In this document: positions 8,602 to 46,499 of the stretch, one piece after another
How the letters are laid out: each line of letters begins with the position of its first letter
Numbering within the stretch: position 1 is the first letter of the stretch
DNA from: Thermodesulfovibrionales bacterium
GTDB lineage: Bacteria > Nitrospirota > Thermodesulfovibrionia > Thermodesulfovibrionales > SM23-35
Length of the DNA: 48,202 bases
Assembly (NCBI GenBank): GCA_030019415.1
Contig: JASEEX010000011.1
Coordinates: 1 to 48,202 of the forward strand
Reading direction: 5' to 3'
Translations under genes and position numbers: made by a program
Notes under the pieces: generated by a model
Databases searched by the model: none
Told to the model about the DNA's origin: nothing
What the model saw: only the letters and a program-made list of their open reading frames with translations

Positions 8602-9422
8602 TGCTTGAAAAAATAAGAGACTTAACCTGTGGGTATGATTCGGGATTTCTCCTTCAGGATATAAATTTTGAAGTAAAACACAAGGAACTTATTGGGATAA
8701 TCGGACCTAATGGCTCAGGAAAAACAACACTACTCCGGGCAATAACCCGCCTGCTTAGACCTAAAAAAGGGGAGATTTTCTTCGAGGGAAAAGACATCTG
8801 GCAGATTCCTCTTAAAGAATTTTTTAAGAAGATAGCCGTGGTTACCCAGAATCCACCGGTAAACTCTATGAGTGTAGAGGAGTTTGTCCTTTTAGGCAGA
8901 ATCCCGCATTATAAGAGATTCCAATTTTTTGAGACCAGAGAAGACTTAGAGGTTTCCAGAAGATGCATGGCCTTAACTAATACCCTAAGGCTTAAAGATA
9001 AATCTATAAATCAGCTAAGTGGTGGGGAAAGGCAGCTCGTCTCTATCGCACGTGCATTAACGCAGGATCCGAAGTTGCTTTTATTAGATGAACCAACCGC
9101 GCATCTTGACATAACCCACCAGGTAGGAATTTTAGATCTTATAAAAAGATTAAATAAAGAATTTGGACTCACAGTAATCATGGTCTTGCATGACCTTAAT
9201 TTAGCCAGTGAATATTGTGATAGACTGCTTCTCCTTAATAATGGGAAAATGCATAAGACTGGAACACCTCAGGAGGTATTAACATATCAAGTCATAGAGG
9301 AGATATATAACACTATTGTAATTGTGAAGGAAAATCCTGTAAGTCTCAAACCCTATATTTTTTTAGTCCCCGAGGAAGAGAGGCAGAAAGGTATAACAGG
9401 GAGAAGAGGGATTGAATATTAG
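8601..9422 (+). CDS. btuD: Corrinoid ABC transporter ATPase (BtuD)
   Basis: The 273-residue ATPase energises BtuC. All ABC motifs are intact: Walker A GPNGSGKTT (Lys41), Q-loop Gln83, signature LSGGERQ at residues 139-145, Walker B LLLDEP (Asp163, Glu164) and switch His197 in VLHDLN. A short C-terminal extension after residue 235 has no recognised domain. The start is GTG at 8601, with aggaag just upstream inside the btuC end. The stop lies within the beginning of cobU. This is the last gene of the AT-rich block; composition shifts back in cobU. Confidence 0.95.
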   Translation: MLEKIRDLTCGYDSGFLLQDINFEVKHKELIGIIGPNGSGKTTLLRAITRLLRPKKGEIFFEGKDIWQIPLKEFFKKIAVVTQNPPVNSMSVEEFVLLGRIPHYKRFQFFETREDLEVSRRCMALTNTLRLKDKSINQLSGGERQLVSIARALTQDPKLLLLDEPTAHLDITHQVGILDLIKRLNKEFGLTVIMVLHDLNLASEYCDRLLLLNNGKMHKTGTPQEVLTYQVIEEIYNTIVIVKENPVSLKPYIFLVPEEERQKGITGRRGIEY

Positions 9423-10044
9423 CAAAATAGTCTTTATCACAGGTGGTGCGAGGAGTGGCAAGAGTTCATTCGCCCTTAAAGAGGCATCAAACATTTCTGG
9501 TAAGAAGGCATACATTGCCACTGCAGAGGCACTTGATGGAGAGATGAGGGAACGGATAGAAAATCATAAACGCTTAAGAGGCGATAAATGGGTTACATAC
9601 GAAGAGCCATTAAAAATCACTGATTTGGTTGAAGATATAAAAGGCAAATTCAGTATTATGTTGATTGACTGTCTTACATTGTGGCTATCGAATCTAATGA
9701 AAGCTGGTTTGAATATAGAAGCTGAAATTGAACATTTTATCTCGTCACTCGTCACTCCCCGGCCTCGCTCCCCGGCCTCGCTCCCCGGCCTCGCTCCGCG
9801 AAGCGGGGCAGGCCGCGAAGCGGGGCAGGCCGCGAAGCGGGGCAGGCGCCACTCGTCACTGGTATATATTGTCTCCAACGAAGTCGGTATGGGAATCGTG
9901 CCAGAGAATGAATTCGCAAGAAGATTCAGAGACATGGCAGGGATACTCAATCAGAAAGTGTCTGAGGTCTCGGATGAAGTATATATGGTTGTAGCAGGAA
10001 TACCTGTAAAGATAAAGGAGAAATATGATACAGGAGACAATTGA
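9412..10044 (+). CDS. cobU: Adenosylcobinamide kinase / guanylyltransferase CobU carrying an in-frame palindromic insert
   Basis: CobU phosphorylates adenosylcobinamide and converts it to adenosylcobinamide-GDP. The protein has the P-loop GGARSGKSS at residues 11-19, [12 protein letters not shown], the [19 protein letters not shown] guanine-site region, [12 protein letters not shown] and the C-terminal [12 protein letters not shown] and [12 protein letters not shown] motifs. It is 210 residues against about 175 usual. The excess is an Arg/Pro/Ala-rich stretch (about residues 114-150) encoded by a GC-rich inverted repeat at 9750-9860; removing those 111 bases restores a normal protein in frame. 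The start is TTG 9412 inside the end of btuD, the only codon that keeps the P-loop region. Whether the insert tolerates activity is unknown, but the frame is kept. Confidence 0.92.
9741..9860. repeat. GC-rich palindromic element inserted in frame in cobU
   Basis: The nine-base ctcgtcact occurs at 9741-9749 and 9852-9860, exactly 111 bases apart. Between them lie three ccccggcctcgct-type units and three gcgaagcggggcaggc-type units that are inverse complements, so the RNA or single strand would fold into a strong hairpin. The GC content far exceeds that of the surrounding gene. 111 is a multiple of three, and collapsing the direct repeat joins FISSL directly to VYIVSNEVG. Confidence 0.9.
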
Positions 10045-11143
10045 AAAGATAGTGCCTATTAATCTCGAGTTCGCTGTAAAAGCGCAGAGGAGGCTTGATA
10101 ATCTCACAAAACCTCCGGGAAGCCTCGGAAGGCTCGAGGAGTTTGCAAAAAGGCTTGTGGCAATTACAGAAAACGTCATGCCGGTGCTCGATAAAAAAGT
10201 CATCTTTACATTTGCAGGAGACCACGGAGTGGCAGATGAAGGGGTTTCAGCTTTCCCAAAAGAGGTCACAAGACAGATGGTCTTTAACTTTCTCCAGGGA
10301 GGAGCCGGGATAAACGTGCTTGCACGCCATGCAGGCGCCGAGGTTGTTGTTGTTGACATAGGAGTTGATTTTGATTTTACCAAAGCTGGGGACAGCCCCG
10401 ATTCTACGGCTTCGCTTCGCTTCGCCCGTAAATCTTGGGACAGTCCCCTTACAGCTTTTATTTCAAAAAAGGTCGTCATGGGGACGAAGAATATGCGACA
10501 AGGTCCTGCAATGGCAAGGGATGAGGCTATCAGATGCATTGAGGTTGGGATAGAGCTTGCCAATGAGTATACAAAGAAAGGTTATAAAATCTTTGCTACT
10601 GGCGATATGGGTATCGCAAACACAACCCCGTCATCTGCTATAGCAGCAGTGCTAACAGGTAAGCCCGTCTCAGAAGTAACAGGTAAAGGTACTGGCATAG
10701 ATGAAAATAGTTTTAAAAATAAGATTAAAGTTATTGAGGATTCAATTGCCATAAATAGGCCTGATTCAAAAGATCCGATTGATGTCCTTTCAAAAATTGG
10801 AGGAGCCGAGATAGGAGGCATTGCTGGCTTAATCATAGGTGCAGCATCAAACAGGATCCCTGTTATTGCAGACGGATTTATTTCGACCGCAGGTGCCTTA
10901 ATAGCTTATTGCATCGAACCAAAGACAAAAGACTATATGTTTGCAGCACACAACTCTGCTGAGATCGGTCATAAAGCAATGCTTGAGAAAATTGGATTGA
11001 GACCAATTCTTGACCTTGACTTAAGGCTCGGTGAAGGCACAGGAGCAGCCCTCGCAATACTTATGATTGAGGCAGGCCTTAAGATTTATAAAGAGATGGC
11101 AACATTTGGTGAGGCAGGGGTATCGAAAAAGAATAACCAATAA
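10025..11143 (+). CDS. cobT: Nicotinate-nucleotide--dimethylbenzimidazole phosphoribosyltransferase CobT with in-frame repeat insert
   Basis: CobT transfers phosphoribose from nicotinate mononucleotide to the lower-ligand base, giving alpha-ribazole phosphate. Family motifs are [18 protein letters not shown] (near residues 27-44), [74 protein letters not shown] and [11 protein letters not shown] with the catalytic-type Glu337. At 372 residues it is about 20 longer than usual; the excess is a palindromic element at 10384-10456. The start ATG 10025 overlaps cobU by 20 bases and has an aaggagaa site. The last residues, Asn-Asn-Gln and stop, come from an aataaccaata repeat that begins at the 3' end. 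Confidence 0.94.
10384..10456. repeat. Palindromic element inserted in frame in cobT
   Basis: The arms ggggacagccccgatt and aatcttgggacagtcccc are imperfect inverse complements around a tcgcttcgct core, bounded by aaagctg and its inverse cagcttt. The short repeat agct at 10384-10387 and 10453-10456 is 69 bases apart, a multiple of three. Removing one unit would join DFTKA to FISKKVVMG, matching the spacing expected in CobT. It adds about 23 residues between the DFDF and KKVVMGTKN segments. Confidence 0.82.
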
Positions 11144-11192
11144 CCAAATTACAATAACCAGACATTTTGGAATTTGGTCATTGGAATTTAAT
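11131..11192. repeat. aataacca-type repeat with inverted arm at the cobT 3' end
   Basis: Three copies of aataacca-like units (11131-11160) are followed by ttggaatttggtcattggaattt (about 11168-11190), which is roughly their inverse complement, so the RNA can fold into an AT-rich stem. The repeat supplies the cobT stop codon and fills the cobT-cobS gap. Similar sequences occur at 22690-22912 and 38856-38945. Confidence 0.75.
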
Positions 11193-11981: not shown

Positions 11982-12045
11982 GGCTTTTCAATCAAGAGTT
12001 TTAGATGACAAAGAGCAAAAGGGGGTGGAATACTTAAAGACCGTG

Positions 12046-12198
12046 CTGGCTGGATGTCAGGGAAGAGAGGTGAAAATCCTCCGCTGCCCCGCAGCCGTGA
12101 AGGGAACGAAAGCCTAATTAAAAGCCACTATTATGGGTAACACCATAATGGGAAGGCTGGTAAGTAGGTTGCCCTGAGCCGGAAGACCTATCCAGACC
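12046..12198 (+). promoter_or_regulatory. Cobalamin riboswitch 2
   Basis: A second complete cobalamin aptamer, with P1 arms ggctgga (12048-12054) and tccagacc (12191-12198), gctgccccgcagccgtgaa, gggaacgaaagcc, gccactattatggg, and the B12 box gagccggaagacct. It precedes the second btuB-like receptor and tonB. The core matches riboswitch 1 closely, while the 5' region and variable stems differ, so the aptamers have diverged more than the downstream leader. The stretch 11982-12045 holds no clear promoter. Confidence 0.93.
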
Positions 12199-12299
12199 TT
12201 AAAAAGTTTAAAGTTCCAAGTTTAAAGTTTAAAGTTTAAAACCGAGAACTGTAAAACTTGGACAAACACTCTAAAAAAAATTTCTCGAGGGAGGAAAAA
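12191..12299 (+). promoter_or_regulatory. Leader/expression platform of riboswitch 2 (copy 2 of duplicate)
   Basis: This copy differs from 998-1105 only at one base (aaaaccgag versus aaagccgag) and one additional A before the start codon. The same 9-bp helix (12215-12223 with 12254-12262) and the interlocking cgagaa/ttctcg helix next to the gggagg ribosome binding site can form. Near-identity of a non-coding leader beside diverged aptamers and coding regions suggests recent duplication or gene conversion, or strong functional constraint. Confidence 0.55.
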
Positions 12300-14246
12300 A
12301 TGAAAGCAAGTCTTCAGTTTTTAAAACTCATTATTTGTATTCTACTACTTTTCATTTTTCACTTTTCATTTATCGCTTCTCTATTTGCAGAAGAGGAGAT
12401 AAAGATTGAAGAGATTGTTGTCACTGCTACCCGAATAGAAGAACCGGTGAAAGAGGTTGCGAGTTCGGTCACGGTAATCACGGAAAAGGAGATAGAAAGT
12501 AAGAAGGCAAAGACGATTCTGGAGGTTTTAAAGGACGTTCCAGGGGTAGACATTTCTCAGAGCGGAGGGTTTGGTCAATTAACCGATATTTTTATTAGAG
12601 GGGCTAAACCCGAACATACCCTGATCATGATTGATGGGGTTGAGATGAACGATCCTATGAGTCCAGGTCGCTCTTATGATATTGCCCACCTCTCAGTAGA
12701 TAATATCGAGCGAGTTGAGATTGTTCGCGGTCCCCAGAGCACTCTTTACGGCTCTGATGCTATTAGCGGTGTGATAAACATCATTACAAAAAAAGGGGAG
12801 GGAAAACCAAAATTCTCCATCTCTGGCGGGGGAGGAAGTTACAATACCTTCAGAGAGACAGCCGGCCTTAGCGGCGGAACAAAATGGGTAAATTACTCAC
12901 TTGGCATTTCCCGCCTTGATACCAAAGGCTTCTCCGCTGCCCATGAGAGGTATGGAAACACAGAAAAAGACGGATACAAAAACACCTCTCTCTCGGCAAG
13001 GGTTGGGTTTACACCCACGGAGTATCTCAATATTGACTTTATTGTAAGGCACATTAATGCCGAGACCGATCTCGATACAAAAGGAGGAAGAGGTGGAGAC
13101 GACCCCAACTACGTTTCGGATTCAAAGCAACTTTTTCTCAGAACCCAAGGTAGTCTTCTTCTTTTCAATGGCCTGTGGGAGCAAAAATTGGGCTTTTCTC
13201 TTAGTAACCACGATCGAGATTACCGCGACGATAAAGATGCCCAGCACCCCCATGACTCATCAAGAGGTTTCTATAATGGTAAGATGCGGAAGGTTGACTG
13301 GCAACATAACCTCTATCTCCATAAGACAAATACCTTGACCATTGGGGTTGAATATGAGGAAGAAAGAGGAGAGTCGGAATATTCCTGGGAGAGTGCATGG
13401 GGACCTGGCAAGAGTGTTTTCCCTGAGAAAAGCGCCAATACAAAAGGGGCTTACATCCAGGATAAGATAGCGCTCTATGAGAGCTTTTTTGTCACCCTTG
13501 GCATTAGAGTAGATGACCACAGCCGCTTTGGCAGTGAAACTCTTTATCGTATAGCCCCCGCTTATCTTTTTAAGAAGACCGGTACAAAGATTAAAGCAAC
13601 CTATGGTACGGGCTTCAAGGCACCTTCTCTTTATCAGCTCTATGCTCCAGCTACTGCATGGGGTCCAATAGGCAATGAAAATCTTAAACCCGAGAGGAGC
13701 AAAGGGTGGGATGTTGGGATGGAACAATATCTTTTCCAGGGTAGGTTGACACTTGGCGCTACTTACTTTCGAAATGACTTTGAAGATCTTATTGATTTTG
13801 ATTGGGCTAAAGGGTACATCAATATTGCTGAAGCGAAGACCGAAGGTGCGGAAATCTTCGCCTCAGTCCGGCCTATTATCAAAGATCTGAGCGTCCGGTT
13901 AGGTTATACTTATACTGACACTGAAGACAAGAAAACCGGGCAGAGACTCTTAAGGAAGCCAATGAACAAAGGCAGCCTGAATTTAAATTATCTTTTCCTT
14001 AAAAAAGGGAGTGTTAATGTTGACATTATCTATGTGGGGAGGAGAGATGATCTAAACCCCGATACCTACGAGCGGGCTAAGGCTGGTGATTACACCCTGG
14101 TCAACCTGGCTGCTTCCTATGATATTTCGAAAAACATCCAGGTCTTCGGCCGTGTGGAAAACTTACTTGACAGAGATTACGAGGAGGTCTCGGGTTATGG
14201 GACACCAAGGTTTACCCTTTTTGGAGGCATTAAAATAACACTTTAA
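12300..14246 (+). CDS. btuB: TonB-dependent outer-membrane cobalamin receptor (BtuB-like), copy 2
   Basis: The 648-residue protein has a signal peptide (LIICILLLFIFHFSFIASLFA) and then IEEIVVTATRIEEP, the same mature start as copy 1. The plug is BtuB-like: SVTVITEKEIES, VLKDVPGVDISQSGG, FIRGAKPEHTLIMIDGVEMND, VDNIERVEIVRGPQSTLYGSDAISGVINIITKK. The barrel follows, including FKAPSLYQLYAP and LKPERSKGWDVG, and it ends in GGIKITL. The plug is closer to classical BtuB than copy 1. A TTG-initiated extension back to 12258 is possible, but ATG 12300 sits behind gagggagg. tonB follows four bases after the stop, so receptor and energiser are probably co-transcribed under the riboswitch. Confidence 0.93.
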   Translation: MKASLQFLKLIICILLLFIFHFSFIASLFAEEEIKIEEIVVTATRIEEPVKEVASSVTVITEKEIESKKAKTILEVLKDVPGVDISQSGGFGQLTDIFIRGAKPEHTLIMIDGVEMNDPMSPGRSYDIAHLSVDNIERVEIVRGPQSTLYGSDAISGVINIITKKGEGKPKFSISGGGGSYNTFRETAGLSGGTKWVNYSLGISRLDTKGFSAAHERYGNTEKDGYKNTSLSARVGFTPTEYLNIDFIVRHINAETDLDTKGGRGGDDPNYVSDSKQLFLRTQGSLLLFNGLWEQKLGFSLSNHDRDYRDDKDAQHPHDSSRGFYNGKMRKVDWQHNLYLHKTNTLTIGVEYEEERGESEYSWESAWGPGKSVFPEKSANTKGAYIQDKIALYESFFVTLGIRVDDHSRFGSETLYRIAPAYLFKKTGTKIKATYGTGFKAPSLYQLYAPATAWGPIGNENLKPERSKGWDVGMEQYLFQGRLTLGATYFRNDFEDLIDFDWAKGYINIAEAKTEGAEIFASVRPIIKDLSVRLGYTYTDTEDKKTGQRLLRKPMNKGSLNLNYLFLKKGSVNVDIIYVGRRDDLNPDTYERAKAGDYTLVNLAASYDISKNIQVFGRVENLLDRDYEEVSGYGTPRFTLFGGIKITL

Positions 14247-20075: not shown

Positions 20076-20983
20076 AGATAAACTTCACAAAGATGCATGG
20101 TTTAGGCAATGACTTTATTCTTATAGATTGCCGTGAAAATAAATTCGAAATTCGTCCGCCTGAGGCGGAGAATTTCGAAATTTTAGCAAAAAAGCTATGC
20201 AATAGACGATTCGGCATAGGCGCTGATCAGCTACTGTTGCTTTATCCTTCAGAAATCGCTGATTTTAAAATGAGAATCTTCAATGCGGATGGCAGTGAAG
20301 TAGAGATGTGTGGGAATGGGATACGTTGCCTCGCAAAGTATATTTGGGACAGAAACCTTTCTGATAAGAAAATCCTCCATATAGAGACCCTTGTCGGCAT
20401 TATTAAACCAGAGAAATCAGGTGACATGGTGAAGGTTGACATGGGAGAGCCTACCTTTGAACCAGAAAAGATACCGGTAAGAATAGTTGAAACTTCAAAG
20501 TTGAAAGTTGAAAGTTCAAAAACTCAAAACTCAAAACTCAAAACTCAAAACTCAAAACTAATTATTGACTGCCCATTGCAGATTAAGGACAGGGAATTCA
20601 GAATCACCTGTGTCTCTATGGGAAATCCCCATACAGTTATTGTTGTTGAAGATATTTCTCATTTCCCTGTAACATATTATGGCCCTTTGATAGAGAGTCA
20701 ACCCATATTCCCCAAAAGAACAAACGTAGAATTCATAGAAGTGCTTACTCCTGCTGAGATAAAGATGCGTGTATGGGAAAGGGGCTCTGGTGAGACTATG
20801 GCATGCGGTACAGGTGCGTCAGCTGCAGCTGTGGCATCAAACATAAAGGGTCTTACCGGTAAAAACGTAACTGTACATTTACCTGGTGGAGACCTTTTTA
20901 TAGAATGGGCTGCTGACAACCACGTGTATATAATAGGTCCTGCTGTAGAGATTTTTGAGGGTATAATCGAGAATCAAAGGTAA
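20072..20983 (+). CDS. dapF: Diaminopimelate epimerase DapF with heptad-repeat insert
   Basis: DapF converts LL- to meso-diaminopimelate with a two-cysteine base pair. Both cysteines are present, in NADGSEVEMCGNGIRC and GSGETMACGTGASAAA, along with KMHGLGNDFILID at the N-terminus and TCVSMGNPHTVIVV. It is 303 residues against about 275-280 usual. The surplus is a Ser/Lys/Asn-rich stretch (about residues 140-164) encoded by tandem heptanucleotides at 20490-20560, between the FEPEKIPVRI and DCPLQIKDREFRI segments, a surface loop region. The insert keeps the frame. ATGA overlap with lysA; dapA follows after 15 bases. Confidence 0.95.
   Translation: MKINFTKMHGLGNDFILIDCRENKFEIRPPEAENFEILAKKLCNRRFGIGADQLLLLYPSEIADFKMRIFNADGSEVEMCGNGIRCLAKYIWDRNLSDKKILHIETLVGIIKPEKSGDMVKVDMGEPTFEPEKIPVRIVETSKLKVESSKTQNSKLKTQNSKLIIDCPLQIKDREFRITCVSMGNPHTVIVVEDISHFPVTYYGPLIESQPIFPKRTNVEFIEVLTPAEIKMRVWERGSGETMACGTGASAAAVASNIKGLTGKNVTVHLPGGDLFIEWAADNHVYIIGPAVEIFEGIIENQR
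20490..20560. repeat. Heptanucleotide tandem repeats inside dapF
   Basis: Units of aaagttg/aaagttc are followed by about five copies of caaaact. Because seven is not a multiple of three, the peptide repeats every seven residues (SKLKTQN). The frame is preserved through the tract. Confidence 0.9.
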
Positions 20984-21892: not shown

Positions 21893-22654
21893 TCAGAGAT
21901 ATTTTTTAATCGTTTTAATATCAAGGTTTTTTACTGCAGCCTTTTCGATAGTACCGCTTTTCAAATCTTCAAGATAAGGGAAAATCCCTATAATCGGGAC
22001 AGGACTGAACTGTTTTATGACCTCTGGGTTAGTGTCTTCAGCAAGTGTACCTTCAGGAGGCAGGCTATAGTTAATAATAATTCCCGCAACATTGAGCCCT
22101 TCTTTTGTCGCATAATTGACAGTAAGCATAGTATGATTGATTGTACCAAGGCCTGGCCTTGAGACGACTACAATTGGCAATCCAAAGTCTTTTGCGAGGT
22201 CAAGAACAAAGTACGGGGTTTCAAAGGGGCTTCGCCCCTTTGTGATAGGAACAAGCAGCCCGCCAATTCCTTCAACAATAACCACATCGTAATTTTTTGA
22301 AAGTTCTCTATAGGCCTTTTGTATAACTTTAAGGTCAACGGGGACCCCTTCTATCTCAGAAGCGGGGAGAGGTGCAAGGGGGTTTTTAAAGCGAATTGGG
22401 GTAACTAAATCTATGGAATCATTCATACCTGCCATTTCTCTCAAAAACATTCCATCAGACGGTATTAATACTTCTTCTTTAACTTTTAACTTTGAACTTT
22501 TAACTTTTAACTTTGATTTAAGGCATCCCGTCTCTATCGGTTTCATTCCGCATACCTTGAGCCCTAAAAGCCTGATAGCTTTGATCAATGCAGCGGTTAC
22601 AACCGTCTTACCAACGCCTGTATCAGTGCCTGTTATGAAAAAACCTCTTGCCAT
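21893..22654 (-). CDS. bioD: Dethiobiotin synthetase BioD with heptad-repeat insert
   Basis: BioD carboxylates 7,8-diaminopelargonate to dethiobiotin with ATP. The P-loop GTDTGVGKTVVTAALIKA (residues 8-25), GMKPIETGC, VIVEGIGGLLVPI and VVVSRPGLGTINHTMLTV are diagnostic. The protein is 253 residues, about 15-20 above usual. The surplus follows GCLK and is a Lys/Ser/Val run (about residues 45-60) encoded by heptanucleotide repeats at 22477-22519. It follows bioF on the same strand across a 240-base repeat-rich gap; bioA and bioB are not in the window. Confidence 0.94.
   Translation of the reverse strand: MARGFFITGTDTGVGKTVVTAALIKAIRLLGLKVCGMKPIETGCLKSKLKVKSSKLKVKEEVLIPSDGMFLREMAGMNDSIDLVTPIRFKNPLAPLPASEIEGVPVDLKVIQKAYRELSKNYDVVIVEGIGGLLVPITKGRSPFETPYFVLDLAKDFGLPIVVVSRPGLGTINHTMLTVNYATKEGLNVAGIIINYSLPPEGTLAEDTNPEVIKQFSPVPIIGIFPYLEDLKSGTIEKAAVKNLDIKTIKKYL
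22477..22519. repeat. Heptanucleotide tandem repeats inside bioD
   Basis: On the minus strand the units are aaagtta and aaagttc, about six copies. They encode the LKSKLKVKSSKLKVKEE stretch right after the GCLK segment and keep the bioD frame. The unit is the same type as in dapF (20490) and atpF (24657). Confidence 0.88.
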
Positions 22655-22689: not shown

Positions 22690-22912
22690 TCAGCTCCAAA
22701 TCACCAATAACCAATAATCAAACACCAAATAAGTTCCAATAACCAATCACCAAACTTTTTACATTGTCATTGCGAGCCTGCCCCCGAGCCAAAGAGATTG
22801 CTTCGGCTGATTTCGTCAGCCTCGCAATGGTACCCTTTCCCACATCCTCCCCCTTGAGGGTGTTTGTTTGTATTATGTTTGGTTATTGGAATTTGATCAT
22901 TGGTTATTCAGA
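22690..22912. repeat. Composite repeat between bioF and bioD
   Basis: The gap holds, in order, ccaataaccaataatcaaacacc-type units (about 22704-22755), a tgtcattgcgag/ctcgcaatgg hairpin (22765-22830), and tttggttattggaatttgatcattggttattc (about 22878-22909), the inverse of the first part. The whole can fold into a large stem with the second element as its inner branch. The right arm supplies the bioF stop codon. No gene or promoter is evident in it. Confidence 0.82.
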
Positions 22913-24233: not shown

Positions 24234-24653
24234 ATGTTAGAACTTAACAAGTGGTTTTTTGTTATGGCTGCAAATTTCTTCATTCTGTTTTTCATCTTAA
24301 ATTATCTTCTCTTCAAGCCTCTTCTTAAAATCTTCAAGGAAAGGGAAGATACTGTTAAGAACTCCCTCGATGCTGCGAAGGACATGACTAATAGGAGAGA
24401 GGAGGGCATCGCCAGATTGAACAGGGAACTTGTTGAGGCAAGAAACAGGGCAAAGGAGACATTCGAAACACGCAAGGCCGAAGGGCTGCAGAAGCAGAAG
24501 GAGATTCTCTCAGAGGCTGGGGCAGAGGCATCTGAAATACTCGAGAAGGCCAGATCAGAAATCAGGGCCGAGGCTGAAAGGGCAAGGAAATCGTTAAGGG
24601 TAGAGGTTGATAAATTCTCTGACGAAATCCTGAGAAAGTTGGTGAGGGTATGA
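24234..24653 (+). CDS. atpF': ATP synthase Fo subunit b' (AtpF-like)
   Basis: This 139-residue protein has one N-terminal membrane span (FVMAANFFILFFILNYLLF, residues 9-27), the FKPLLKIFKERED junction and a long charged coiled coil rich in Ala, Glu and Arg. That is the layout of a peripheral-stalk b-type subunit. It is followed with a 4-base ATGA overlap by a second b-type gene, so the pair is interpreted as b' and b forming a heterodimeric stalk. Start ATG 24234 has agagaggtagg upstream. It opens an operon b'-b-delta-alpha-gamma-beta-epsilon; the a and c subunit genes are absent here. Confidence 0.9.
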   Translation: MLELNKWFFVMAANFFILFFILNYLLFKPLLKIFKEREDTVKNSLDAAKDMTNRREEGIARLNRELVEARNRAKETFETRKAEGLQKQKEILSEAGAEASEILEKARSEIRAEAERARKSLRVEVDKFSDEILRKLVRV

Positions 24654-25261
24654 AAAAAGTTCAAAGTTCAAAGTTCAAAGTTCAAAGTTCAAAAATCTTC
24701 ATTATTTTTGCATTTTGCATTTTGCATTTTGCATTTACATCTATTGCCCTCGGTGTTGAAGCAGAAGAGGCAGCTCACACCCCTCTATGGAAGGATTACC
24801 TGTGGAAGATAATTAATTTTGGAATCCTGGTCTTTATCCTCTATAAATTCGGCAAAAAACCCCTTCAGTCATTTCTGAGGCAGAGGACTGAATTGATAGA
24901 AAAGACTCTTAAAGAGGCTAAGGAGGCAAAAGAAACTGCAGAAAAGGCACTTTGTGAGGTTGAGGAAAAGCTCAAAACAAAAGATGCGGAGATAGAAAAG
25001 ATTCTATCTGCATCGAGGCAGATGGGCGAAACAGAGCGTGAAAGTCTTATAGAAGAGGGTAATAAACTCAGAGAAAAGATATTAGAACAGGCAAAGGTAA
25101 ATATAGATTATGAGCTAAAGCATGCAAGAGAGGCGATTAAGGCAGAGGCAGTTGAGATTGCCCTTGAGCTCGCAGAAAAGAAGCTTAAAGAGAAGTTGAC
25201 AAAGGAAGAACAGGAAAAACTTCTCGAAGAATCTATTGCGAAGATAGGGGGTAGTAGGTGA
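24650..25261 (+). CDS. atpF: ATP synthase Fo subunit b with repeat-derived N-terminus
   Basis: The 203-residue protein has a hydrophobic N-terminal segment, a second membrane span (LWKIINFGILVFILYKFG, near residues 46-63) with KKPLQSFLRQRTE, and a long coiled coil ending in an amphipathic helix (EIALELAEKKLKEKL). The first 30 residues (Lys/Ser-rich, then FIIFAFCILHFAF) are encoded by heptanucleotide repeats and resemble a signal peptide, as some b subunits in related bacteria have (SIALGVEAEE would be a cleavage region). It overlaps atpF' by ATGA and atpH by 4 bases. It anchors the delta subunit to the membrane sector. Confidence 0.9.
   Translation: MKKVQSSKFKVQSSKIFIIFAFCILHFAFTSIALGVEAEEAAHTPLWKDYLWKIINFGILVFILYKFGKKPLQSFLRQRTELIEKTLKEAKEAKETAEKALCEVEEKLKTKDAEIEKILSASRQMGETERESLIEEGNKLREKILEQAKVNIDYELKHAREAIKAEAVEIALELAEKKLKEKLTKEEQEKLLEESIAKIGGSR
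24657..24738. repeat. Two heptanucleotide arrays at the 5' end of atpF
   Basis: The tract has about five copies of gttcaaa (24657-24693), followed after a short spacer by four copies of cattttg (24709-24738). They encode the first 30 residues of subunit b, including a hydrophobic stretch. Read-through in frame is preserved. Confidence 0.9.
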
Positions 25262-38855: not shown

Positions 38856-38945
38856 AAATCACCAATAACCAATAATCAAACACCAAGTAAGCTCCGCTCA
38901 TCAAACAATGTTTGGTTATTATAATTTGGTTATTGGTTATTATTT
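38856..38945. repeat. aataacca-type repeat between dnaX and ebfC
   Basis: Left arm caccaataaccaataatcaaacacc (38863-38884 region) and right arm tttggttattataatttggttattgg (38911-38938 region) are inverse complements around a short gctccgctcat loop. The right arm, read on the minus strand, provides the last codons (Asn-Asn-Asn-Gln) and the stop of dnaX. It is the same family as at 11131 and 22690. Confidence 0.85.
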
Positions 38946-45110: not shown

Positions 45111-46499
45111 ATGAAGGCAATGATCCTTGCAGGTGGCTCTGGCACGAGGCTCTGGCCACTTTCGAGAAAAAATTATCCAAAGCAATTTCTGAAACTCAAT
45201 AGCAACCAGTCTCTTCTCCAACAGACAGCAGAGAGGCTCTTGCACGTCTTCTCTCCCGAAGACATTGTGGTGATGACCAATAATGAGTATAAGTTTCACG
45301 TTAAATCTGACCTTGAATCTTCGGCAATCACCAATATAGTTCTTGAACCGGCATGTCGGAATACCGCACCGGCGATCGCGCTCGGAGTTACGTTTTGTCT
45401 TGAACGTCTGGGATGCACAGAAGATGAATTCCTTCTTATCTCTCCCTGCGACCACATCATCAAACCTGTTGAGAAGTTCAAGGAGTATATAGCGCATGCA
45501 GAGGGTGTTGCTAAAGAGGGTTATATAGTCACGTTTGGTGTCAAGCCAACACGCCCTGAAACCGGCTATGGATATATCAAAGCAAAAAGCAAGGAGCAAA
45601 GAGCAAAGAGTCAGGATTACTTCATAGTAGAGAGGTTTACAGAAAAGCCGGGTGAAGAGATGGCAAAGGGATATTTGGAAGCAGGAATGTATTACTGGAA
45701 CTCAGGTATGTTTGCCTTTACAATAGGCTTGATAATTGAGGAATTTATGAGACATGCACCTGAAATTGGTAAGGCCTTTAAAATGAGCTTTGATGAATTT
45801 AGTTCGAGATTTCATGAGATGACCAATATATCTCTCGATTACGCCATAGTGGAGAAGTCAGACAAGGTGGCGGTACTCCCTATGGAACTATATTGGAATG
45901 ATGTCGGCTCCTGGGACTCATTGTATGACATCCTCGATAAAGACAAAAAAGGCAATGTGAAAGTCGGCGATGTGATCACCATAGGGACTAAATCAACTAT
46001 GGTAATAGGCGACAAGAGATTAATAACCACGATAGGTCTTAAAGACTGCCTCGTGGTCGGAACAGATGATGCCATATTGATAACAAAAAGGGGACAAACC
46101 CAGAAGGTGAAGGAGGTTGTAGAGAGGCTCATGTTGGAGGATCGTAGAGAGGTATCAGAGCATTTGACTACTTACCGTCCATGGGGTAGTTATACAGTGC
46201 TTGAAGAAGGTCCAAGGTATAAAATTAAGAGAATCGTTGTAAATCCATGTGAAAAGCTGAGCCTTCAGATGCATCACCACAGGTCTGAGCACTGGGTGGT
46301 TGTGAGGGGAGCTGCAAAGGTGACGATAGGTGATAAAGAGATATTCATCCATGAAAATGAATCTGCATATGTGCCAAAATCAACCCTTCACAGACTTGAA
46401 AATCCCGGCAAGGTGCCGCTGGAGATAATCGAAGTGCAGAATGGGGAGTATGTGGGAGAGGATGATATTTTGAGGATTGAGGACCATTATGAAAGGTGA
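45111..46499 (+). CDS. manC: Mannose-1-phosphate guanylyltransferase/mannose-6-phosphate isomerase
   Basis: The bifunctional protein (462 residues) makes GDP-mannose. The N-terminal nucleotidyltransferase has LAGGSGTRLWPLSRKNYPKQFL at residues 5-26, SPCDHII, the FVEKP-like VERFTEKPGEEMAKGY and YYWNSGMF. The C-terminal cupin is RPWGSYTVLEEGPRYKIKRI with LQMHHHRSEHWVVVRGAAKVT, the isomerase-type metal-binding histidines. Residues around 160-168 (SKEQRAKSQ) come from a short heptad tract at 45579-45612. It supplies GDP-mannose for polysaccharide. lhgO follows after 6 bases. Confidence 0.95.
   Translation: MKAMILAGGSGTRLWPLSRKNYPKQFLKLNSNQSLLQQTAERLLHVFSPEDIVVMTNNEYKFHVKSDLESSAITNIVLEPACRNTAPAIALGVTFCLERLGCTEDEFLLISPCDHIIKPVEKFKEYIAHAEGVAKEGYIVTFGVKPTRPETGYGYIKAKSKEQRAKSQDYFIVERFTEKPGEEMAKGYLEAGMYYWNSGMFAFTIGLIIEEFMRHAPEIGKAFKMSFDEFSSRFHEMTNISLDYAIVEKSDKVAVLPMELYWNDVGSWDSLYDILDKDKKGNVKVGDVITIGTKSTMVIGDKRLITTIGLKDCLVVGTDDAILITKRGQTQKVKEVVERLMLEDRREVSEHLTTYRPWGSYTVLEEGPRYKIKRIVVNPCEKLSLQMHHHRSEHWVVVRGAAKVTIGDKEIFIHENESAYVPKSTLHRLENPGKVPLEIIEVQNGEYVGEDDILRIEDHYER
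45579..45612. repeat. Heptad-type tract inside manC
   Basis: About four units of the type agcaaag (agcaaaa, agcaagg, agcaaag, agcaaag) encode a Lys/Glu/Arg/Ser-rich stretch between the GYGYIKAKS and DYFIVERFTEKP segments, in frame. Confidence 0.65.

Follow-up and report, generated by a model that had tools for sequence, protein, structure and literature searches.

The window analysed here, a 48,202-nucleotide stretch of a contig from a Thermodesulfovibrionales bacterium, contains ATP synthase genes in the order b'-b-delta-alpha-gamma-beta-epsilon. The b gene, atpF, encodes a member of the F-type subunit b family, as both its place in the atp operon and its scores indicate: the product matches PF00430 with an E value of 1.8e-22 (80.3 bits, cut-off 28, residues 51-179) and TIGR01144 with 74.2 bits (cut-off 65.5). 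Just upstream lies the gene for a second b-type subunit, b', whose top NCBIfam match is PRK07353 (subunit B'), with a score under its cut-off. Where does translation of b begin? The stop codon of b' overlaps the start codon of b (ATGA). Including this one, 42 of the 50 atpF loci compared open with such an overlap, the ORF in front being 90 codons or longer. This argues against a start downstream of the two repeat arrays that fall within the first 35 codons of atpF, and translation very probably begins ahead of them. The protein then opens MKKVQSSKFKVQSSKIFIIFAFCILHFAFTSIALGVEAEEAA...

Each of these arrays is a perfect run of a 7-nucleotide unit (Table 1). In the sequence-only reading, the first encodes the basic beginning of a leader-like N terminus and the second its hydrophobic core, FAFCILHFAF, and both Tandem Repeats Finder (TRF) and translation bear this out. 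The layout is of the Sec type: MKKVQSSKFKVQSSK as the basic n-region, IFIIFAFCILHFAF as the hydrophobic core, and then TSIALG, with small residues at -3 and -1. The b leaders of relatives are laid out in a similar way. Judging from this layout, the leader is probably used and may be cleaved; it would act either as a cleaved signal peptide or as an uncleaved membrane anchor. Given the established topology of subunit b, a leader would assist the export of the acidic tail VEAEEAAHTPLWKD ahead of the membrane helix.

Could the repetition simply follow from the peptide? To put a figure on this, the peptide was held fixed and codons were drawn according to the usage of the genome itself in 20,000 draws. 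The 7-nucleotide self-match of the n-region is 0.85 against a null mean of 0.42, a value reached in none of the 20,000 draws, and that of the core is 0.92 against 0.58, reached in 0.0002 of them. The period-7 signal of both arrays therefore exceeds what the peptide demands. With homogeneous tandem units beyond chance, both are heptanucleotide simple sequence repeats.

Table 1. Features in the window, with coordinates counted from its first nucleotide
Feature	Position	Strand	Basis or remark
F0 subunit b' (second b-type subunit)	24234-24653	+	PF00430, E 3.4e-20
F0 subunit b (atpF) with N-terminal leader	24650-25261	+	PF00430, TIGR01144
Heptad array 1, (AAAGTTC)5.4, perfect	24656-24693	+	TRF, 100% match; encodes basic n-region KVQSSKFKVQSSK
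Heptad array 2, (TTTTGCA)4.4, perfect	24706-24736	+	TRF, 100% match; encodes hydrophobic core FAFCILHFAF
c-region TSIALG, putative cleavage site	24737-24754	+	Aligned to the AFA/AFG cleavage-like motif of relatives
Predicted RNA hairpin, the two arrays paired in register	24664-24736	+	About 6/7 bases pair (GU allowed); functional role weakly supported
In-frame heptad array inside DapF	20485-20559		
In-frame heptad array inside BioD-like protein	22478-22514		
In-frame heptad array inside mannose-1-phosphate guanylyltransferase type protein	45579-45610		

Period 7 across the genome

The preference for a 7-nucleotide unit is not confined to atpF. A sample of 409 kb from the same genome, made up of the window and 40 stretches not picked for arrays, holds 18 period-7 arrays (6 of them within the window); every other unit length between 4 and 15 yields 0 to 2, and a Markov control none. 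A genome of another family (G030) is similar, with 12 period-7 arrays in 400 kb and 0 to 2 for other periods. At a looser threshold the number of arrays collected from the own genome rises to 67, of which 48 lie inside ORFs; in the sample not picked for arrays, the figure is 21 of 29. As read, 40 of the 48 in-ORF arrays are hydrophilic and 8 hydrophobic, and six of these eight are leader cores by inspection (atpF, TolB, SpoIID-like, DacA, TPR lipoprotein, and LptE). One unit class, AAAATGC, is read both ways, giving FAFCILHFAF in atpF and KMQNAKCKMQN at another locus (L131). In addition to the three host proteins in Table 1, of which the BioD-like protein is an AAA_26 member, array hosts include a fumarase C-terminal domain, LpxK, an RNA methyltransferase, UvrA, a DUF1015 protein, and leucyl-tRNA synthetase. 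The idea of a single repeat family spread across the phylum was rejected on the one unit examined, TTTTCAC, which reaches three exact copies in 2 of 198 genomes, the own genome among them.

Several further repeats were seen along the way. The leucyl-tRNA synthetase array (L140:6591-6627) sits before the motif YWMPVDQ, and different heptads lie at seemingly the same site in a similar-sized protein of G030 (L187:2008-2038). Imperfect clusters of AATAACC-type heptads are found at 11132-11160, 22699-22753, and 38857-38941, two of them sharing some 40 near-identical bases. A CobU-like gene (9412-10044) carries GC-rich tandem repeats at 9741-9850, a 13-mer in 3.3 copies followed by a 17-mer in 3.1 copies (both 100%), flanked by CTCGTCA heptads; a 173-position model spans 199 residues of its product, which suggests an in-frame insertion.

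What about the two TonB-dependent receptors of the window, whose leaders had been credited with a similar periodicity? The claim stands, as a weak heptad, for the leader near 12330-12380 (P of 0.006 for the leader and 0.02 for the core). It fails for the one near 1150-1200, where period 6 outdoes period 7 (leader, 0.009 against 0.04; core, 0.015 against 0.15). Near-identical AAAGTTT heptad arrays are also present at 1010-1048 and 12203-12240, each lying between a cobalamin riboswitch (813-1016 and 12035-12209) and its receptor gene.

Heptads in the leaders of relatives

The search for b genes covered 61 genomes, including the own genome, which is the only one of its genus among them. A b protein was present in 60, and 50 of these (the own genome and 49 relatives) were analysed, the ten omitted being weaker matches. 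Each leader was tested against the synonymous null at P<=0.01, with windows from the mature protein as control. Two further genes, tolB (26 of 30 loci analysed) and dacA (30 of 30), were picked because the own genome carries arrays there. A period-7 excess is found in 20 of 50 atpF leaders (mature windows, 0 of 150), 12 of 26 tolB leaders (2 of 208), and 20 of 30 dacA leaders (7 of 239). Period 8 is in excess in 7, 1, and 5 leaders, respectively, and each remaining period in 0 or 1 for atpF and tolB and 0 to 2 for dacA.

The sequence-only reading proposed that repeat DNA had created the leader and raised the question of whether the leader is lineage specific. It is the arrays that are specific to lineages. 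The observation that this reading had itself named as refuting, the same leader in relatives without the repeats, is the one made here. In all 50 b genes the mature part is preceded by a hydrophobic segment, and 30 of the leaders show no period-7 excess at P<=0.01. At an AFA-like motif the cores of many relatives align gaplessly, among them array-free ones (FAVCILSLGLVSFAFA in L014, LVSCILNLVFVSFAIA, and FAFCVFTLATTAVAFA in L019, against FAFCILHFAFTSIALG) and that of the array-bearing L010 (FTFCILNFAFVSIAFA), in a comparison in which 2 of the 50 lacked the anchor and anchors were visibly off in L011, L027, L030, and L036. Leaders are present in other phyla as well: among named genomes, 18 of 80 loci had a testable leader, and 1 of the 18, from a deltaproteobacterium, was periodic. 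On these comparisons, the leader appears to be old and the arrays appear to be a lineage-specific overwriting of it.

The n-region itself changes rapidly. Array 1 of L010, from the nearest genus, is AAATTTC in 4.7 copies, differing from AAAGTTC by one base that is changed identically in all copies. In L012, of the same genus, unrelated sequence takes over after just 2.1 copies of AAAGTTC, and L013 resembles L012 by eye. Across the order, 19 of the 20 periodic atpF leaders yield consensus units that sort into at most 16 classes, several of these calls being weak or spanning two arrays. Array-bearing leaders are also longer (Mann-Whitney P of 0.0004, with kinship ignored).

How much of this recurrence is inheritance? 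In a quickly built tree of the mature b protein, with SH-aLRT support only, the array label requires 11 changes, at least 7 of them forced by the starred branches; arrays have thus been gained or lost repeatedly, with different units. The label is nonetheless clustered, 11 changes comparing with 15.9 after shuffling and a count as low being reached in 3 of 500 shuffles, so that part of the recurrence is inheritance. One could go further and propose that an array was ancestral to the order and has been kept by concerted evolution, recurrence then being mainly descent rather than repeated colonisation. The clustering fits this proposal, as do the return of the same three genes and the mildly periodic cores of three array-negative leaders from the own family (P of 0.030 for L015, 0.041 for L017, and 0.061 for L018). 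It is still rather unlikely, given the forced changes, the wide differences between units, and the 30 atpF leaders without signal.

Do heptads favor signal peptides in general? Three secreted proteins were picked because the own genome has no array there. The period-7 excess was found in 0 of 26 leaders of Pal-like OmpA-family lipoproteins (26 of 30 loci analysed), 2 of 26 of M16 peptidases (26 of the 28 loci given, 30 returned), and 0 of 14 of outer membrane efflux proteins (14 of the 14 loci given, 30 returned). These near-zero counts indicate that the effect is gene specific, some leaders being repeatedly or persistently written in repeats and others rarely or never, and they weaken the case for a general enrichment in signal peptides, an idea also examined with two crude predictors. 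With the first, predicted leaders contain 4 of 29 arrays of the own genome, where 0.46 would be expected (P of 0.003, atpF being missed), 5 of 38 in hit-chosen own stretches (0.55 expected), and 2 of 19 in G030 (0.39 expected, P of 0.07). With the second, some of whose signal-peptide calls look false, 6 of 68 own leaders are periodic against 5 of 658 interior windows (Fisher P of 0.0002), or 4 of 66 once two matches in the window are removed (P of 0.006), and in G030 6 of 87 against 10 of 689 (P of 0.005). Periodic non-signal N termini number 4 of 262 in the own genome and 3 of 260 in G030, fewer than among the leaders (P of 0.007 and 0.009).

Origin and upkeep of the arrays

The reading we favor, with a probability of roughly 0.7, is that b has an ancestral membrane-targeting or signal leader whose DNA was overwritten and homogenised by heptanucleotide slippage. 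The own genome and its relatives would generate 7-bp tandem arrays chromosome-wide, most of them intragenic and translated in frame, and the arrays would persist where the protein tolerates them. In leaders, a purine-rich unit on the coding strand would supply Lys, Ser, and Gln to the n-region, and a pyrimidine-rich unit would supply Phe, Leu, Cys, and Ile to the core. Charge and hydrophobicity could thus be preserved while the unit sequence turns over, with arrays renewed by concerted copy change where those properties are the main constraint. Slippage would be the generator, we infer, and relaxed constraint the filter. Plain tolerance leaves the preference for atpF, tolB, and dacA leaders unexplained.

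A more speculative reading starts from an inverted pair of heptads. Translated, the purine arm would give a Lys-rich n-region, and its reverse complement would give a core rich in Phe and Leu (AAA becoming TTT, and AAG becoming CTT), so that a stop-free, purine-rich heptad and its inverted copy would yield a signal peptide automatically, and slippage templated by a hairpin between the arms could give birth to leaders or renew them. We consider this quite unlikely. In the tolB leader of one genome (G017, L233), the consensus units AAAGTGA and TTTTCAC are exact reverse complements; the two units are reverse complementary at 6 of 7 positions in tolB and dacA of G006 and dacA of G005, and at 5 of 7 (6 with GU) in the own atpF.

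A related idea, that the arrays are retained for RNA or DNA structure in the form of a long in-register hairpin just inside the gene, is decidedly unlikely. The two arrays alone do fold well (z of -4.0, matched by 0 of 200 shuffles), and in 16 two-array leaders the units of one leader pair slightly better with each other than with units swapped in from another (5.44 against 5.07 of 7 bases, P of 0.011; 5.13 against 4.64 with Watson-Crick pairs only, P of 0.006). The fold falls to a z of just -1.39 with flanks included (13 of 200 shuffles) and to -1.97 against synonymous recodings. These 16, moreover, share ancestry and span several genomes, which means that swapping also mixes genomes; they are all the two-array leaders found, against 52 leaders that have a period-7 excess, and purine-rich and pyrimidine-rich units pair fairly well regardless. 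A hairpin between the arrays is suggestive only, and as a main function it was set aside for its weak support in sequence context.

Might the arrays be a selected contingency device for phase variation? Seven is not a multiple of 3, so a gain or loss of one unit would shift the frame and turn b off or alter its leader; array 1 opens 6 bases past the first base of the start codon, and the perfect, homogeneous units suggest recent slippage. We nevertheless hold this to be very unlikely: ATP synthase is in our judgement a poor target for a switch, and arrays also lie within enzymes of biosynthesis and repair, DapF, LpxK, and UvrA among them. Least credible is the proposal that repeat DNA made the leader de novo, because, although array-encoded DNA makes up most of the own n-region and core with a periodicity beyond the peptide's needs, the b genes of relatives all have a hydrophobic leader, most of them without period-7 excess, and share a recognisable core.

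Comparison with known heptamer repeats

Heptads in leaders are strongly gene specific, and those of atpF show at least seven gains or losses within one order, with different units. Such leaders offer a natural setting in which to ask what minimum of a leader's sequence is needed, whether slippage can furnish the material from which leaders are built, and whether one step suffices for an inverted heptad to make one. In the openly licensed literature searched, no report was found of heptads forming signal peptides.

Heptamer repeats as such are familiar. The excerpted text of PMC4692102, citing a 2007 survey, describes an excess of heptamers in bacteria and explains it by polymerase slippage. 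The GGGNATC heptamers of Xanthomonas and Nostoc treated there are, like the present arrays, dispersed 7-nucleotide units of variable copy number. They differ in being rich in G, in lying mostly between genes, and in being depleted from coding sequence, in contrast to the 48 of 67 own arrays in ORFs and the enrichment of certain leaders described here; AAAGTTC and TTTTGCA have no G-tract and do not belong to this G-quadruplex type. The same excerpts cite Lin and Kussell for simple repeats that are enriched near protein N termini and tied to phase variation. Here, too, repeats favor the N-terminal part of genes, but it is the n-region and core of specific leaders that they occupy, non-signal N termini being rarely periodic.

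In the portion of PMC4679880 consulted, the TAACTGA repeats of Beggiatoaceae are likewise direct repeats of a heptamer, some of them in ORFs, mostly at protein ends. Theirs is a single fixed unit, placed mainly just 5' of start codons and stop-rich in the forward sense, whereas many units occur here that are read through and encode leaders; with other units, and within coding sequence, the atpF arrays fall outside that family. Geobacter metallireducens has 49 copies of one GC-rich heptanucleotide element, for which a regulatory role is proposed in the part of PMC2700814 consulted. These are tandem heptads within and between genes, as here, and that part of the account does not link them to leaders. 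In the excerpts of these sources, then, the known heptamers are mostly intergenic or treated as regulatory, while in the present genomes they are the very text of the leaders of core envelope and energy proteins.
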